Positions 6,454-17,284 of a stretch of 64,000 nucleotides of DNA are shown here, one piece after another. Each line of letters begins with the position of its first letter. Position 1 is the stretch's first letter. A model generated the notes under the pieces. That model did no database searches and was not told the origin of the DNA. It worked only from the letters and a program-made list of their open reading frames with translations. The translations under genes were made by a program, and so were the position numbers. Source of the DNA: Thiomicrorhabdus arctica DSM 13458 (lineage in GTDB: Bacteria > Pseudomonadota > Gammaproteobacteria > Thiomicrospirales > Thiomicrospiraceae); contig NZ_KB905899.1 in NCBI RefSeq assembly GCF_000381085.1, positions 434,001 through 498,000 on the forward strand, in the 5' to 3' direction.

Positions 6454-7347
6454 CTATAGTTTAGAGAAATATCCCTTTAAGTAATCAATCAGTAGTCTTA
6501 GTTTTTTAGACTCGGCATTGCCGGGTGGAAAGACTCCATAGACATTAATGTCTTTCAGTGTGTAGTCATCCAGCACGGATATCAAAGTGCCCCGCTGAAT
6601 TTTGGGTTTGGCGTCATATATTGGAATTTGAGCTAACCCGTGACCCCCTTCAACAAAGGCGGTTTTTGCGGCGGCATTATTGGTTTTAATGGTGCCTTTT
6701 AGTTCAATCGAGTAAGAGCGTGTGCCTTTTGTCAGTTCTAGGTGATCTGAGCTTAATTTGTATAAAACCCACTGATGTTTATGAAGTTCTGTTGGCTTTT
6801 TGGGGAGTCCGTATTTTTCAAAATAACGGGGTGAACCGCAAAGGCAGGTTTTTAAGGTTGAGAGTTTGGTGGCTTGCAGTCCTGAGTCGGGCAGTGATGC
6901 ACCTCGAATCGCTAAATCAATGCCTTCTTTCATGATATCGACGACTTCATCGGTGAACATGACATCAAGCTCAATTTTAGGATAGAGCGCTCGAAATTCA
7001 TTGAGGGCAGGCACTATGATCTGTAGACCGATATTGACTGGACAAGTGATTTTTAACAAGCCGGTAGGGTCATGTTTAAGATTTTCAATTTTCTGATTCG
7101 CGGCAGAGGCTTGCTCGGCGATCACGCGACAATGTTGATAATAGGCTCGACCTGCTTCGGTGAGTGAGATTGTTCGGGTTGAGCGATTGAGTAACTTTAT
7201 CTTAAGGTGTGCTTCCAGCTTTTTTATATGGTAACTGACCACGGCACGAGACAACCCCATATGCTTGGCCGCTCCGCTTAATGTTCCTTGCTCGATGACT
7301 TGAGAAAAGACCACCATACTTTTCAGTTGTTCAAAAGGCATCTCCAT
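6454..7347 (-). CDS. LysR-family transcriptional regulator
   Basis: A 297-aa DNA-binding regulator with an N-terminal winged helix-turn-helix (about 5-64: LSGAAKHMGLSRAVVSYHIKKLEAHL, then LLNRSTRTISLTEAG) and a C-terminal substrate-binding-like effector domain (~90-295). This is the closely related group often annotated as CrgA/DmlR-like. It is transcribed away from the PfpI-yqhD-curA operon, which it most likely controls, because the shared gap holds LysR-type inverted and direct repeats. The inducer is unknown; an electrophile or aldehyde is a reasonable guess from the neighbours. The start could be two codons later (7341). Confidence 0.9.
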   Translation of the reverse strand: MEMPFEQLKSMVVFSQVIEQGTLSGAAKHMGLSRAVVSYHIKKLEAHLKIKLLNRSTRTISLTEAGRAYYQHCRVIAEQASAANQKIENLKHDPTGLLKITCPVNIGLQIIVPALNEFRALYPKIELDVMFTDEVVDIMKEGIDLAIRGASLPDSGLQATKLSTLKTCLCGSPRYFEKYGLPKKPTELHKHQWVLYKLSSDHLELTKGTRSYSIELKGTIKTNNAAAKTAFVEGGHGLAQIPIYDAKPKIQRGTLISVLDDYTLKDINVYGVFPPGNAESKKLRLLIDYLKGYFSKL

Positions 7348-10624: not shown

Positions 10625-11371
10625 TTACTTAAACTCATACTCAAGTTGTAATCGTGCCGTTCCATTTTCAGTTGCTTTGGTTAATCCAAATAAATAGGCG
10701 GTGTTGTATTTAATATTGCCAATTTTTCCAAAGAGTGCAGGGCCTACCTTATGAGATTGCTGCGAAGCGGGTAGCCATTTATCCCAAGCACCCACTTCAC
10801 CAAAGCCTTGAACGCCAAACTCAAGCGCTTTCTTTAATCGGTATTTTGCTTGCAACTGGTATTGACCTACGACTTCGTTCGCGGCAGGGTTATTGCCACC
10901 AAACTTCGCTTCAAAAAGAAGGTTAGCGTTATATTGCATTTTTCCTGAATTTATTTGAAACAGTGGGCCTACCTTAAATTCGGATGGATCTTCGCCATTC
11001 GAGGGCAGTTCAAGCTCGGTAATAAGACCAATGTCGATTGGGTATTGCCCCGTTTGAGTCAATTGAAACTTATTCTCAAACTCAAGTACATTCTGTGCCG
11101 GTTTCCCATTTTCTTTTTCAGATTTAAGATAGAGCTCTGAAAACCATTTTTCACTGACGCCATATCCAAAACCAAGACTGGTCACATTTTGTTTTTGATC
11201 GGGTGAGGTATCCGTTCGGCCACTTGTGCCATATTTGAAGTCTATTTCAAATTCACCTTCTTCAACGTTAGGTGTATAGACATAGTCGGCGGCGCCTGCA
11301 AAAGAGGCATTTGAATGCATCACGCCTAAAGACAAAAATAGAGTGGCTGTTGGTTTTAGAAAATTTTTCAT
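10625..11371 (-). CDS. outer-membrane beta-barrel-like protein of an iron-uptake operon
   Basis: A 248-aa exported protein: signal peptide about 1-28 (hydrophobic LFLSLGVMHSNASFAGAA), then alternating polar/aromatic strands typical of a small outer-membrane barrel (repeated F-x-x-x-Y-x-F patterns) and a C-terminus ending in LQLEYEFK, with the terminal Phe two from the end as in barrel proteins. No named family recognised. The start overlaps the end of the FTR1 gene by 4 bases (ATGA), so it is translationally coupled and probably serves the same transport process, for instance by admitting iron to the periplasm (inference). Confidence 0.7.
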   Translation of the reverse strand: MKNFLKPTATLFLSLGVMHSNASFAGAADYVYTPNVEEGEFEIDFKYGTSGRTDTSPDQKQNVTSLGFGYGVSEKWFSELYLKSEKENGKPAQNVLEFENKFQLTQTGQYPIDIGLITELELPSNGEDPSEFKVGPLFQINSGKMQYNANLLFEAKFGGNNPAANEVVGQYQLQAKYRLKKALEFGVQGFGEVGAWDKWLPASQQSHKVGPALFGKIGNIKYNTAYLFGLTKATENGTARLQLEYEFK

Positions 11372-12201
11372 GACATTGCGTCCTTGCGTGTTAAACGTTT
11401 ATTTTGGTGATTTAACCACTTGATGGCAAAAAATATGGTGAGCAGCGTGACAACATAAAACACCACTTGGATTCCATCTGGTCTTGCGTTATAGCCTAAA
11501 AGCGTTTGTAAAAAACTCCCCAAAAGGGAGGCATTTGGCAGAACAGAAGACAAATCCCATAAAGGGCTCACTAATGCGGGGATTTTATTTGCTTGCACTA
11601 GATAGTTCGCTGCTTGTGAAGCCATTCCGGCGGACAAAAAAGCAATTAAAATAGCGGTGCCTTTAAAAAATAGACGGACAGGAAGATGTAATAAGCCTGT
11701 GTAAATAATGAACCCTACTAGCACACCAGATAAAAGCCCTATGCCGCCGCCCAAAAGCATTGAGTTGGCTTGTGCCCCGGAAGCAGAAATGCCATATAAA
11801 AAGATTACGATTTCTGAACCCTCTCTTAAAATGGCAACGCCGACGATCACCAGTAAAACAGACAATGCCTTTTGACCCTCTTTAATAGCAAGGCCTGTAC
11901 TTTTAGCATCCTTAGAAATACTTGCACCGCGCGTTGACATCCAAATCGTTTGCCAAGCCAACATCACAACAGCAATACTTACTACACCGGCATTAAATAA
12001 CTCTTGTCCCAGTCCATCGGCAAAATCGCTCAGCTCACTGCCTAAATAAGCTAACAATACCGCACCCAATAAGCCGAGAAAAATTCCTGCCAATAACCAT
12101 TTATTCCTATTAGGAATGGCTTGTGTTGCTGCTGCAATAACGCCAATGACAATGGCGGCTTCTAATATTTCTCTAAAAACAATAATGGCCGTTTCAAACA
12201 T
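11368..12201 (-). CDS. FTR1-family high-affinity iron permease
   Basis: A 277-aa inner-membrane permease of the FTR1/EfeU family, which moves ferric iron coupled to its oxidation. Both iron-binding REXXE motifs are present: REILE at 10-14 in the first helix and REGSE at 126-130 in the fourth. About seven hydrophobic segments are visible. It follows the cupredoxin gene by 11 bases and overlaps the outer-membrane gene. Pairing of a cupredoxin-like periplasmic protein with FTR1 is as in EfeUO-type systems, although no EfeB peroxidase is seen here. Confidence 0.93.
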   Translation of the reverse strand: MFETAIIVFREILEAAIVIGVIAAATQAIPNRNKWLLAGIFLGLLGAVLLAYLGSELSDFADGLGQELFNAGVVSIAVVMLAWQTIWMSTRGASISKDAKSTGLAIKEGQKALSVLLVIVGVAILREGSEIVIFLYGISASGAQANSMLLGGGIGLLSGVLVGFIIYTGLLHLPVRLFFKGTAILIAFLSAGMASQAANYLVQANKIPALVSPLWDLSSVLPNASLLGSFLQTLLGYNARPDGIQVVFYVVTLLTIFFAIKWLNHQNKRLTRKDAMS

Positions 12202-12212
12202 TTTAGGTTCCT

Positions 12213-12545
12213 TTATTTAACAATGATCATGCCTTGAGCCGTCTCATGAAAAAACTCACCAAAAAAGGGATATCTACCTGGTTTTAAAGGACCAATAAAC
12301 ACTTTAGCTCGAGATTTCCCTCTAATTAATTTTTCTCGATTAAGAGGGTAGCTTTCAAATTCTTCAGCTGTTGCATCTTGATTATCAATCATCAATACAA
12401 CTTTTTTGCCCGATTCAATGGTTATTTCAGAGGGCGAAAATAGATGGTTTTTTATCGTAATTTCGTATTCTAATGTCTCGGCTGACACCAGTGAGGAATA
12501 GAGAAAACCGCTTAAAATAATTTGTAACAATATCGACTGTTTCAT
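12213..12545 (-). CDS. periplasmic cupredoxin-domain protein
   Basis: A 110-aa exported protein: signal peptide ending near VSAETLEY, then a single cupredoxin-like beta-sandwich (EITIKNHLFSPSEITIESGKKVVLMIDNQD is typical of the EfeO N-terminal/cupredoxin_1 fold) and a C-terminal GEFFHETAQGMIIVK that would carry metal ligands (His, Met). The ATG at 12545 has GTGGAG four bases upstream; a longer reading from 12599 would overlap the Fur box. First gene of the iron operon; it may oxidise or bind iron, or deliver copper, for the permease (inference). Confidence 0.8.
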   Translation of the reverse strand: MKQSILLQIILSGFLYSSLVSAETLEYEITIKNHLFSPSEITIESGKKVVLMIDNQDATAEEFESYPLNREKLIRGKSRAKVFIGPLKPGRYPFFGEFFHETAQGMIIVK

Positions 12546-12584
12546 AAGGCTCCACTTATCAATAAACTTAATGAGAATGTACAT

Positions 12585-12603
12585 GATAATGATTTTCATT
12601 CAC
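12585..12603 (-). promoter_or_regulatory. Fur box upstream of the iron operon
   Basis: GATAATGATTTTCATTCAC matches the 19-base Fur consensus GATAATGATAATCATTATC at 15 positions. It lies 40 bases before the cupredoxin start, where an iron repressor would block transcription. The neighbouring genes are an iron permease operon, which supports it. Confidence 0.75.
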
Positions 12604-12868: not shown

Positions 12869-13885
12869 TTAGGAGGGAGAAGGATAGGGACCATATTTCG
12901 CTTTATCATACGCCGCTTTATCGCCCTTAAAGTAAGCCGGAACGGCATAATCATCCGGTCTAAACCTAGGGTTGGGAAAGTCTTTCTCCCGATGTGCTTT
13001 CATGGGACGTTGTAAGGATTCAACATAAGCGGCTATATCGTAAGCTTGGTCAACGGTTAACGTCGGGTTTTGGGCTGTGGTCCCTTTTGGCATATTGCCA
13101 TAAATAAACCGAGTGGCTTTTTTCAAGCGGCTCATACCTGCACCATCGTTAAAAGAGTCCTTGCCTGCCAGTGGCGGGTGAGTATAGCTTCCATCTTTGC
13201 CATAGGTTGCCGAAGGCTGTCCTTTGCCGCCAGCACCATGGCAAGTAATACAAAATGTGCCAAATAAACGTTGGCCTACTTGAACATTGGCCTTTCGGTC
13301 TGGAAAGGTTACCTTAGGCAAGCCTGTGCCTGTCATCGCCTGATTGAGTTGAGTGCCTTTTGAGAGCCATTTGAAGTAATCAATAATTGCAATCATCTCT
13401 TTAGAGTCGGATGGGAATGGTTTTCCCTGTCCTTGACTGCGAACCATGCAACCATTGACTCGGTCTTCAGCAGAACCAATCCGCATGCTGCGTGCACGAA
13501 AACTGGGGTAATCATTCATGACATTGACATAAGGAATGCCTAAAGGAACGGTTCCTGGTAAGTTACTTGGGCCAGCGAGGTGGCAATTAACGCAATTTAA
13601 AGAGTTACCGGAGTATCTCATCTTGGGGTCACTTGATTTCGGTCCGATGAGCTTTGTTGTGTCACTTAATAGAGCAATACCATATTTGATAGAACTTGCA
13701 TTGGGTTCGTTATCTGGTGATTGATTGGGGAGTTTCCAGTCTTGAACAGGGCGATTATTGGCTTTTTGTGTTAATTCAAGAGCTTGCTTTGTTGTCAGTT
13801 TTTGACCAATCGAGTAGGGTGAAACATCCATAGAGTAGACCGGGAATGCGAATAATAATATGCAGAGGCTTAAAAAAAATCTCAT
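12869..13885 (-). CDS. tsdA: TsdA-family dihaem cytochrome c, thiosulfate dehydrogenase/tetrathionate reductase
   Basis: A periplasmic dihaem c-type cytochrome that joins two thiosulfate to tetrathionate (or the reverse). Signal peptide 1-18. Haem sites are CVNCH at 98-102 and CITCH at 212-216. The TsdA hallmark, a cysteine ligand to the catalytic haem, is kept as Cys146 in RVNGCMVRSQG (compare RVNxCFxRS in TsdA). Other family stretches are GPKSSDPKMRYSGNSLNC, YPSFRARS, FNDGAGMSRLKKA, NMPKGT (Met265, possible haem-2 ligand), AYDIAAYVESLQRP and the KYGPYPSPS end. At 338 aa it is somewhat longer than the well-known TsdA proteins. Divergent from a sensor that resembles the tetrathionate sensor TtrS. 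The preferred reaction direction cannot be read from sequence. Confidence 0.88.
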   Translation of the reverse strand: MRFFLSLCILLFAFPVYSMDVSPYSIGQKLTTKQALELTQKANNRPVQDWKLPNQSPDNEPNASSIKYGIALLSDTTKLIGPKSSDPKMRYSGNSLNCVNCHLAGPSNLPGTVPLGIPYVNVMNDYPSFRARSMRIGSAEDRVNGCMVRSQGQGKPFPSDSKEMIAIIDYFKWLSKGTQLNQAMTGTGLPKVTFPDRKANVQVGQRLFGTFCITCHGAGGKGQPSATYGKDGSYTHPPLAGKDSFNDGAGMSRLKKATRFIYGNMPKGTTAQNPTLTVDQAYDIAAYVESLQRPMKAHREKDFPNPRFRPDDYAVPAYFKGDKAAYDKAKYGPYPSPS

Positions 13886-14187: not shown

Positions 14188-16104
14188 ATGCATAAAAGTA
14201 GGCTACCAATAAAAACTTTTTCAGAGCAAAAACGTTTAGGCGGCCGAGCATCTATTCTCGGTTGGCAATTATTTATAATCAGTTGTTTATTGATTTTATC
14301 GCCCTTCGTCCAAGCAAATACCCCTAGTGTTAACAGTATTTCCATTGGTGTGTTAGCTTATAAAGGCAAGGCGCAGACTCTTTCACAATGGATGCCAACG
14401 GCAAAATATTTGTCGGATAAAATGCCCGCCTATCAATTTCAAATTGTGCCGCTGACACTGGAAGAAATTAATCAAGCCATTCATAAAGATCATCTGAACT
14501 TCGTATTAACCAATCCAGGTCACTATATTCAACTTCAAGTCAAAAATGGCGCCACGCGTATTGTGACTTTTAAAGCACGGTATATGAATCATGTGTTGAC
14601 TCATTTTGGCACCGTTATTTTTACTCGAAAAAATGAACACCTTAATACCATTGAATCTCTTAAAGGACATACTATTGCCGCAGTGGGTGAAGAAGCTTTT
14701 GGCGGATTTCAGCTAGCGCGGAAAGTCTTTCTTGATCATAAAATTGATATTTTTAAAGACTTAAATGTTGAATGGTTGGGTTTTCCTCAAGCAGACATTG
14801 TTCGCTATGTCTTGTCGGGTAAAGCGGATGCTGGGATTGTTCGGACGGGTGTTTTGGAAAAAATGGCCAATAAAAAGGATATTTCTCTAAGTCAATTCCA
14901 AATTGTTGCACAAAAAAAATCTCACGCCATCCCGTTTGTTCATAGTTCTTCTCTGTATCCAGAATGGCCCTTTTCCAGTCTTCCAAAAACCGATATAGGC
15001 TTGGCGAAAAAAGTGGCGATTGCCCTACTTGAAATGCCACAAAATTCTATTCCAGCCTTGGCTTCTGACGGAGCAGGTTGGACCATTCCTTCAGATTATC
15101 AGCCTGTACGAGAGGTTTTAAAAGAGTTGTATATTGCACCCTATGCGCTTTCAGAATTTGATGTAGACGTTTTTTGGCAACTGTATCATTACTGGATTGT
15201 AATGGTTTTATTCACCTTTTTAGTCAGTGTCTTGGTGATTTTGTTTATTTTAAAAACCAATCGAAAATTATTACAAGCTAAGCAAGAAATCGTTAATCAA
15301 CGTGATCAGCTTGCTGTTACGATTCAGCAACGTACGGCTGAGTTGGTGGAGAGTAATAAAAGCCTGCAACTCGATATAGAATCAAGAATTCAATCTGAAA
15401 AAACCATTAATGATGGCTGTGAGTTTTTACAGGCGCTCTACAATGTGTCCACTCGATTGGATCTAACGGGTAAACAAAAGCTGCAGTCCATTTTAGATTT
15501 AACACGCCAATACCTTGGCGTGGAGTCCGCCATACTTTCAAGGTTTGACCAGCAGGCATTTAATTTATGTATTTATAGTTCTTCTAAAGAGGTCAATACC
15601 GCTCCTTGCGCTCTTGCCTATGGCAAACAGGCCATAGCTGAACATAAGGTTGTCATCTATAACGGAGTCGAGCCGTGGCAAACCTATATTGCATTGCCGG
15701 TTTTTATTTCTGACCACTCCGGCTGCTTGTTTGAATTTGTGACTGAAACACAAGACCATAAAAACAGTCTTGAGCAAGAAGCACTCTCGGAATTTGATCT
15801 GCGTATTTTAAACATTCTGGCATTTTGGGCGAGTAATGAAATTATCAGAATTGATAATGAAGATTTAGATCAAAGCCAACGAGTCATACGCCAGCAACAG
15901 TTTTTAGAGCTGACGTCTCGTGAGCGAGAAGTGTTAAAACTCGTGGTGGATGGAGAGCCTAACAAAGTAATTGCTCGTCTATTGAGTATCAGTCCTAAAA
16001 CCGTAGAGTTGCATCGGGCGAACTTATTACGTAAAACACACTCCTCCTCAACCATTCAACTTGTCAAACAAGCCGTGTTATCAGGCATTGTCACGCCAAC
16101 CTAG
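14188..16104 (+). CDS. membrane-bound one-component regulator: TtrS-like PhnD-type sensor, TM helix, GAF-like linker, LuxR HTH
   Basis: Predicted to sense a periplasmic sulfur compound and act directly on DNA. In order (638 aa): signal anchor 26-43; periplasmic PhnD-type binding domain about 50-325, with ISIGVLAYKGKAQTLSQWMPTAKYL and FVLTNPGHYIQL closely like the tetrathionate sensor TtrS; transmembrane helix ~335-356; coiled coil ~358-405; a GAF-like region ~410-550; and a LuxR/GerE helix-turn-helix 574-632 (LTSREREVLKLVVDG, IARLLSISPKTVELHR). No histidine-kinase H-box, ATPase or receiver domain is present. In TtrS/TtrR the same sensor drives a kinase and a separate LuxR-type regulator; here both ends are one chain. 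Neighbours are tsdA (divergent) and a binding protein downstream. The ligand (tetrathionate or thiosulfate) is inferred. Confidence 0.85.
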   Translation: MHKSRLPIKTFSEQKRLGGRASILGWQLFIISCLLILSPFVQANTPSVNSISIGVLAYKGKAQTLSQWMPTAKYLSDKMPAYQFQIVPLTLEEINQAIHKDHLNFVLTNPGHYIQLQVKNGATRIVTFKARYMNHVLTHFGTVIFTRKNEHLNTIESLKGHTIAAVGEEAFGGFQLARKVFLDHKIDIFKDLNVEWLGFPQADIVRYVLSGKADAGIVRTGVLEKMANKKDISLSQFQIVAQKKSHAIPFVHSSSLYPEWPFSSLPKTDIGLAKKVAIALLEMPQNSIPALASDGAGWTIPSDYQPVREVLKELYIAPYALSEFDVDVFWQLYHYWIVMVLFTFLVSVLVILFILKTNRKLLQAKQEIVNQRDQLAVTIQQRTAELVESNKSLQLDIESRIQSEKTINDGCEFLQALYNVSTRLDLTGKQKLQSILDLTRQYLGVESAILSRFDQQAFNLCIYSSSKEVNTAPCALAYGKQAIAEHKVVIYNGVEPWQTYIALPVFISDHSGCLFEFVTETQDHKNSLEQEALSEFDLRILNILAFWASNEIIRIDNEDLDQSQRVIRQQQFLELTSREREVLKLVVDGEPNKVIARLLSISPKTVELHRANLLRKTHSSSTIQLVKQAVLSGIVTPT

Positions 16105-16118
16105 GGTTTACCCTAGGT
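16099..16118 (+). promoter_or_regulatory. hairpin overlapping the regulator's stop codon
   Basis: ACCTAGGG-TTTA-CCCTAGGT is a perfect 8-base-arm inverted repeat; the TAG stop (16102-16104) lies inside the left arm. No T-run follows, so it is not a typical terminator. It could be a protein site or slow the ribosome; function unknown. Confidence 0.4.
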
Positions 16119-16175
16119 AAAATTTAGTAAATTAATATATTGTGTCATCACGCTCATTAACGGTTAATGGAGAAC

Positions 16176-16191: not shown

Positions 16192-16312
16192 TCCATTTTC
16201 TGAAAGCTCGACGGGCTTAACAAGTCTCATCAAGAAGTACTAAGGAGCCCTCAGTTTTCAGATTGCAATGGATTAATGACGATTAAATTTTTAGATCAGG
16301 GAGTGATGATTG

Positions 16313-17284
16313 ATGAACACAATAATGAAAAAAATGGGTATAGCGTCCGCTCTAACAGCGGGTTTAATTTTGGCAGGGCCAACGATGGCCGAAGATGCTG
16401 GACAGGGGCATGATTATCGTACTTTCCATGCCAATGATAAAATTGACTATGGCAAAATAGAAGATTCTTATAATTCAGATTTGACCATTTATGTGGCTGG
16501 AAATCAGTTTATGGTGATGGAAGAATTGATGAAAGATTTTCAAAAGAAGAATCCGGATATCAAAAAGATTTACCTTGAGACCATTCCGCCGGGACAGATT
16601 TTAAAAGGGCAGATTCTTAAGCAGGGTGAAATTAACGGTCAAAAAACAGCACAAAATCCTGATCTTTTTGCCAGCGTCAATTTAGGGCATCTTAAAAAGT
16701 TGAAGGCAAAAGGTGTTATGGATGATTATCTTATCTATACGCATAACAAGTTAGAACTCATGATTGCCAAAGGTAACCCCAAGAACATTAAGGGTGTAGA
16801 AGATTTAACCAGAAAGGACTTGGTGAAATCTTTTCCAAATCCTTTAACAGAAGGGATTTTTAAATTTTACGGTTCTCGCATGCTAAAAGATTTAGGCATG
16901 TATCAAGAGCTGACGAATGATCAAAAATGTAAAGGTTGTTGGGCTGTTAAAGACGAGACTTACTTTACAAATCGTCACCACCGCGAAACGCCACATCGTA
17001 TCGAAAATGGTCAAGCGGATGTTGGGATTGTTTGGACAACAGAAGTTAAACACGGAAAATCACAAGGTCGAGCAATTGATGGAATTGAAATTCCAGCAAA
17101 ATATAACATGGGCAGTAAAGTAGGTTATGCCATCGGTGTCTTGAAAACGGGTAAAAACCCATACAACGCTTTGCGTTATATGACCTATATCAGCAGTGAT
17201 GATGCTCAGAATATCTATGCAAGTTATGGCTTTGTGAAAGCATCTCTTCAAGACTTAAAGCTTAAGTCGATTCCAACTAAATAG
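16313..17284 (+). CDS. orphan periplasmic substrate-binding protein (PBP2-like)
   Basis: A 323-aa exported binding protein: signal peptide MKKMGIASALTAGLILAGPTMA, then a two-lobe type II binding fold of the molybdate/iron/sulfate-like class (LTIYVAGNQFMVMEELMKDFQKK; DLFASVNLGHLKKLKA; LMIAKGNPKNI; GQADVGIVWTTEV). A CxxC pair, KCKGCW near residue 203, is unusual for this fold and could bind metal or form a disulfide. GGGAG is well placed for ATG 16313. No permease or ATPase lies nearby, so it may be a sensor partner or scavenger rather than part of an ABC importer. Position after the TtrS-like regulator suggests a link to sulfur-compound sensing (inference). Confidence 0.75.
   Translation: MNTIMKKMGIASALTAGLILAGPTMAEDAGQGHDYRTFHANDKIDYGKIEDSYNSDLTIYVAGNQFMVMEELMKDFQKKNPDIKKIYLETIPPGQILKGQILKQGEINGQKTAQNPDLFASVNLGHLKKLKAKGVMDDYLIYTHNKLELMIAKGNPKNIKGVEDLTRKDLVKSFPNPLTEGIFKFYGSRMLKDLGMYQELTNDQKCKGCWAVKDETYFTNRHHRETPHRIENGQADVGIVWTTEVKHGKSQGRAIDGIEIPAKYNMGSKVGYAIGVLKTGKNPYNALRYMTYISSDDAQNIYASYGFVKASLQDLKLKSIPTK

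Follow-up and report, generated by a model that had tools for sequence, protein, structure and literature searches.

A predicted one-component membrane regulator joining a TtrS-like periplasmic sensor to a GerE-type helix-turn-helix in Thiomicrorhabdus arctica

Results

Genes and features of the locus

The window, a 64,000-nucleotide stretch of the genome of Thiomicrorhabdus arctica DSM 13458 (contig NZ_KB905899.1), carries a gene for a predicted membrane regulator, which is divergent from a gene for a tsdA-like di-haem cytochrome and is followed on its own strand by a gene for a secreted solute-binding protein. The inverted repeat CCTAGGGTNNACCCTAGG lies between the regulator and the binding-protein gene (Table 1).

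Table 1. Features of the regulator locus (positions are those of the window)
Feature	Position	Strand	Basis
tsdA-like di-haem cytochrome, divergent neighbour, outside the conserved module	12869-13885	-	Pfam, PDB match
One-component membrane regulator (PhnD, TM, long helix, GAF-like, GerE HTH), predicted, 638 aa	14188-16104	+	ORF, Pfam, NCBIfam, AlphaFold model
N-terminal hydrophobic segment, residues 23-41, signal peptide or anchor	14254-14310	+	Hydrophobicity
Periplasmic PhnD-fold sensor domain, TtrS-like, residues 53-286	14344-15045	+	Pfam, NCBIfam, domain tree, fold matches
Transmembrane (TM) helix, residues 337-355	15196-15252	+	Model and TM prediction
Cytoplasmic stretch of long helix, residues 356-422	15253-15453	+	Model
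GAF-like domain, residues 428-519	15469-15744	+	Model and homology to sox- or binding-protein-linked PhnD histidine kinases
GerE/LuxR-type helix-turn-helix (HTH), residues 575-626, FixJ/TtrR type	15910-16065	+	Pfam, NCBIfam, homology
Predicted operator: CCTAGGGTTTACCCTAGG, a perfect inverted repeat that overlaps the stop codon of the regulator gene	16100-16117		Comparison of loci, motif scores
Predicted promoter: -35-like TTGTGT (16140-16145), 17 bp, -10-like GTTAAT (16163-16168)	16140-16168	+	TTG spacing; -10 by eye
Predicted target: secreted ModA-fold solute-binding protein (SBP_bac_11)	16310-17284	+	Pfam, gene order, co-occurrence, model

Architecture of the regulator

Pfam assigned the sensor domain of the regulator to Phosphonate-bd (E 4e-32) and its C-terminal part to GerE (E 7e-16; 58.1 bits against a curated cut-off of 23.5), and gave no HisKA, HATPase or receiver domain in the protein up to E 0.1. 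The top NCBIfam match was the TtrS kinase model (residues 51-376, E 6e-50), a partial match whose 170 bits lie far below the whole-protein cut-off of 750, while the PhnD model followed far behind with E 5e-7 only. A domain tree also agrees with a sensor of the TtrS kind: in it the single PhnD transporter protein lies apart from the sensors as a whole, though its branch is very long. Clustering with phosphonate-binding proteins, which the first-pass annotation had named as evidence against its reading, was thus not found. Since the domain shares only about 30% identity with TtrS (the comparison sequence being an E. coli plasmid copy), its ligand may differ from that of TtrS.

Besides the N-terminal hydrophobic segment, the protein has a single strong TM helix. 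The segment had been called a signal anchor; it is present, but the VQA↓N that follows it could make it a cleavable signal peptide instead. An AlphaFold model built on 12 sequences (pLDDT 77, pTM 0.39 overall, moderate confidence) comprises a PhnD fold, a helix at residues 326-422 that spans the membrane, the GAF-like domain, a second helix at 535-571 and the HTH at 577-632, and its best fold matches in the PDB are PtxB, ArrX and PhnD. No Pfam match to GAF was obtained in the regulator, and the term GAF-like is used here on the strength of the model and of homology to kinases.

A DNA-binding domain and a TM helix in a single polypeptide are the defining combination of transmembrane one-component regulators. 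As the TtrS-like sensor and the TtrR/FixJ-type HTH are fused here and phosphorelay domains are absent, the protein is predicted to be such a regulator, and no receiver domain or ttr gene occurs in the genes adjoining it. The first-pass annotation had anticipated much of this from the letters of the DNA: its TtrS-like periplasmic domain, one TM helix, GAF-like part and GerE-type HTH lacking kinase and receiver were all recovered, and the resulting chain of sensor, TM helix and HTH agrees with its proposal of a one-protein membrane regulator in place of a phosphorelay pair.

A family of long and short fusions

Relatives were collected with a four-sequence alignment, which yielded 38 loci (among them L152, from Streptomyces, a match to the HTH only); a single-sequence scan of genome contigs had given no match. 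The same architecture recurs in 11 other intact, full-length relatives at 40-67% identity, and this recurrence excludes chance and makes the fusions a real family. The nearest comes from Thiomicrorhabdus sp. Milos-T2 (67%, intact and full length), and the ten further intact ones, from gammaproteobacterial or proteobacterial records, are 40-48% identical. At L125 (2247-4161) a long fusion lies in two frames, with the break between periplasmic domain and TM helix, either through sequencing error or as a true split.

Rhodobacterales and other Alphaproteobacteria have a short form of about 400-540 aa, PhnD-TM-HTH without the GAF region (L133, L136-L139, L141 and L145-L151). Searching 398 genomes of the phylum with a short fusion produced no clear further full-length example, a 525-aa frame in G515 aside. 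Short fusions form one clade in the domain tree (100/100 bootstrap); long fusions are monophyletic in 42% of bootstrap trees, and one or two changes are needed.

The downstream binding-protein gene

Of the 12 intact long fusions, 10 (the window, L115-L121, L124 and L134) have the binding-protein gene after them on the same strand, and the gene also follows the split fusion of L125. At L118 soxB comes after it. The two exceptions are L123, where the fusion precedes soxY and a DsrE-like gene, and L122, where it precedes a gene for a membrane protein. Within the taxonomic family the gene was found in two of 63 genomes, exactly the two with a fusion. Gene order and co-occurrence indicate that the conserved partner of the regulator is this downstream gene, not tsdA. 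The first-pass annotation had also connected the regulator with sulfur compounds, and a link to sulfur oxidation is supported by the soxB, soxY and DsrE-like genes that stand beside its relatives.

The product has a ModA-like fold in the predicted structure (pLDDT 70), and there is no transporter gene beside its gene in the window; it may carry an oxyanion of sulfur or of a metal. Members of this protein family from many gammaproteobacterial families (window 16310-17284 and L044-L057) share about 60-77% identity and have invariant C-x2-CW and RHHRETP motifs. Several short fusions in Rhodobacterales (L141, L145 and L148-L151) lie directly before a gene for a secreted DsrE-like protein.

A predicted operator with fixed promoter geometry

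Repeats of the CCTAGGGTNNACCCTAGG type are kept in most fusion loci and in some kinase/regulator loci, and also occur before soxB, soxY and DsrE-like genes. The window site scored 26.8 bits when the motif model was built without the window, and three Rhodobacterales loci outside the training set scored 25.1-26.8 bits. Sites no more than one mismatch away from CCTAG-N8-CTAGG were found at 12 of 21 binding-protein genes with a PhnD-type regulator nearby and at none of 15 without one (Fisher p 2.6e-4, duplicates of the window removed), a statistic that is not wholly independent, since the motif was defined on the same loci as were counted; the independent sites are those of the Rhodobacterales and of soxB only. 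No good match to the repeat was found in the kinase loci L098, L099 and L100 or in the fusion locus L097/L124.

The window genome holds a single exact match to CTAGGGTNNACCCTAG and, allowing up to two mismatches, one other place, located between soxB and the PhnD-type kinase/regulator pair of this genome; a looser pattern gave further two-mismatch sites, in numbers not above a reversed control. Relatives with sox-linked pairs likewise have the repeat before soxB (21.7, 22.1 and 16.2 bits), which suggests that these sister pairs control thiosulfate oxidation. The soxB-preceding repeats lie at 7046 (L037), 9815 (L042), 10250 (L041) and 10993 (L039).

In all 11 long-fusion promoters (11/11) the distance between the start of the repeat and a -35-like TTG is exactly 40 bases, which would fit a regulator positioned at a set distance from the -35 element. 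Several promoters have an additional CTAG half-site between repeat and TTG. At L141 and L145 a CCTAGGG...CCCTAG repeat separates the short fusion from the DsrE-like gene, and L131 has identical copies CCTAGGGTGTACCATAGG at 300 and 1634, one before the binding-protein gene and the other 1.3 kb upstream.

Relation to PhnD-type kinase/regulator pairs

The GAF-like region of the regulator is homologous to the corresponding part of PhnD-type kinases encoded beside soxB or the binding-protein gene (L039, E 2.8e-14; L098, 1.3e-7; L041, 1.5e-7; the window genome's own kinase, 2.1e-5), and for its HTH the response regulators that go with these kinases are better matches than TtrR. Such pairs (for example L037 and L100) share with the fusion the sensor, TM helix, HTH and neighbourhood, with the GAF-like region in common at the sox loci and L098 and the inverted repeat in common at the sox loci; unlike the fusion, they have a kinase and a receiver, on two proteins. 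At L098 and L100 the kinase gene comes first, then that of the regulator and then the binding-protein gene, and loss of the HisKA-HATPase and receiver parts from this arrangement would leave the order fusion, binding protein. The most likely origin of the fusion is a kinase-regulator pair that stood before the same gene and lost these domains, the direction from pair to fusion being the one we infer.

Discussion

We consider it likely that the protein is a membrane-anchored one-component regulator, derived from a kinase-regulator pair, that responds to a periplasmic sulfur oxyanion by switching on the downstream gene through its HTH at CCTAGGGTNNACCCTAGG. The TtrS-like periplasmic domain would bind a small sulfur oxyanion such as thiosulfate, tetrathionate or similar, and the ensuing conformational change would pass through the TM helix and the long helix to the GAF-like domain and on to the FixJ-type HTH. 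The C-terminal HTH would then bind CCTAGGGTNNACCCTAGG and activate the gene for the secreted ModA-fold protein. The architecture, the family, the partner gene, the repeat with its fixed promoter geometry and the GAF-region homology to kinases are read from sequence; the ligand, the binding of DNA by this HTH and activation instead of repression are what we infer from them.

ToxR and CadC carry an N-terminal winged HTH of the OmpR type. The regulator has no such N-terminal domain, its HTH being C-terminal and of the GerE type, and it differs further in its PhnD-fold sensor; what it has in common with ToxR/CadC-type proteins is an external sensor, a TM helix and a DNA-binding domain in one chain (PMC10269533). 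Membrane proteins with a C-terminal LuxR-type HTH are also known from Eggerthella lenta, where DadR and similar regulators act as activators of the neighbouring gene, but their N-terminal part is a 12-TM domain and not a periplasmic binding-protein fold (PMC9734109). The closest likeness is to TtrS/TtrR, which respond to tetrathionate, and ThsS/ThsR, which respond to thiosulfate, systems with a PhnD-type periplasmic sensor, a LuxR-type output of the TtrR/FixJ kind and a sulfur context (PMC5408782). In contrast to both, the fusion is a single chain that lacks HisKA, HATPase and receiver, includes a GAF-like domain and has other neighbours. TtrS/TtrR use a separate response regulator with a receiver and lie beside ttrBCA, neither of which is present at the fusion locus, and a family search of 369 genomes of the class found no true TtrS above the cut-off. 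A previous survey of PhnD sensors retained only proteins with HisKA and HATPase (PMC5408782) and would therefore have missed the fusion form. While LuxR-HTH membrane regulators (PMC9734109), ToxR-like proteins (PMC10269533) and PhnD-type kinases (PMC5408782) are all known, no description of a direct joining of PhnD and GerE parts was found in the literature searched, which covers few subscription journals.

Beyond this locus, we lean towards the view that a periplasmic sulfur-sensing two-component lineage collapsed into one-protein transmembrane regulators, long in Gammaproteobacteria and short in Rhodobacterales, in which kinase and receiver were lost while the sensor, the DNA site and the target gene were retained. 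If so, this would be a natural bypass of a phosphorelay whose before and after states are both extant and comparable. The locus exists both as a kinase/regulator pair and as a single protein, in some cases with the predicted operator in common, and so lends itself to testing how direct transmembrane signalling can replace a phosphorelay. PMC11582611 describes the sensing of external sulfur compounds by sulfur oxidisers as poorly understood, and the regulator is a candidate sulfur sensor with a predicted DNA site and a predicted target, and possibly a compact part for sulfur biosensors.

The linkage to the binding protein might reflect sensing as well as regulation, with the binding protein acting as a co-sensor that takes up the ligand and hands it on to the PhnD domain. 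Its gene adjoins no transporter gene in the window, and the linkage is retained across kinase, long-fusion and short-fusion forms; yet the same sensor family is linked elsewhere to soxB, soxY or DsrE-like genes without the binding protein, and many genomes have the binding protein with no PhnD-type regulator nearby, so that we regard this role as unlikely. A sensor of phosphonate or phosphite would fit PtxB and PhnD as structural relatives, but we give it hardly any credence given the lead of the TtrS model over the PhnD models, the place of the PhnD transporter protein in the domain tree and the sulfur-oxidation genes among the relatives' neighbours. It is also very improbable that the repeat is a terminator or another structural element, with gene order alone conserved: although it sits at or just beyond the 3' end of the regulator in fusion loci, it is followed by no T run, it keeps a set distance from the -35-like element, and it is found both before soxB and at L128, L129 and L131, where the binding-protein gene is upstream of the kinase.

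Control of the divergent tsdA gene in response to tetrathionate or thiosulfate was the reading of the first-pass annotation. The neighbour is TsdA-like, its product matching the PDB thiosulfate dehydrogenase 4wqc (E 5e-33) and having two CXXCH motifs (CVNCH and CITCH), and it shares a 302-bp intergenic region with the regulator; TsdA-domain cytochromes also accompany PhnD-type kinase/regulator pairs at L144 and on plasmids of Thioclava and Ideonella. Against this, the shared region holds no operator-like site, its best scoring 3.3 bits against 26.8 before the binding-protein gene. tsdA was found in one of 32 genomes of the genus and not in the other 31, and no other fusion adjoins it, so that the linkage of tsdA to a fusion, which had been expected to recur, is unique to this genome among those covered. 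These results rule tsdA out as a conserved partner and make its control by the regulator distinctly unlikely; activation of the binding-protein gene through the repeat is the reading we prefer.

The cytochromes beside PhnD-type pairs are large multi-haem proteins with a SoxA/TsdA-like domain (L144; L158, 2708-4795; L160, 1864-3879), and their loci come from the Thioclava and Ideonella plasmids and one MAG. Downstream of tsdA in the window, on the same strand, 10625-12599 encodes an FTR1-type iron permease, a cupredoxin and one more protein.
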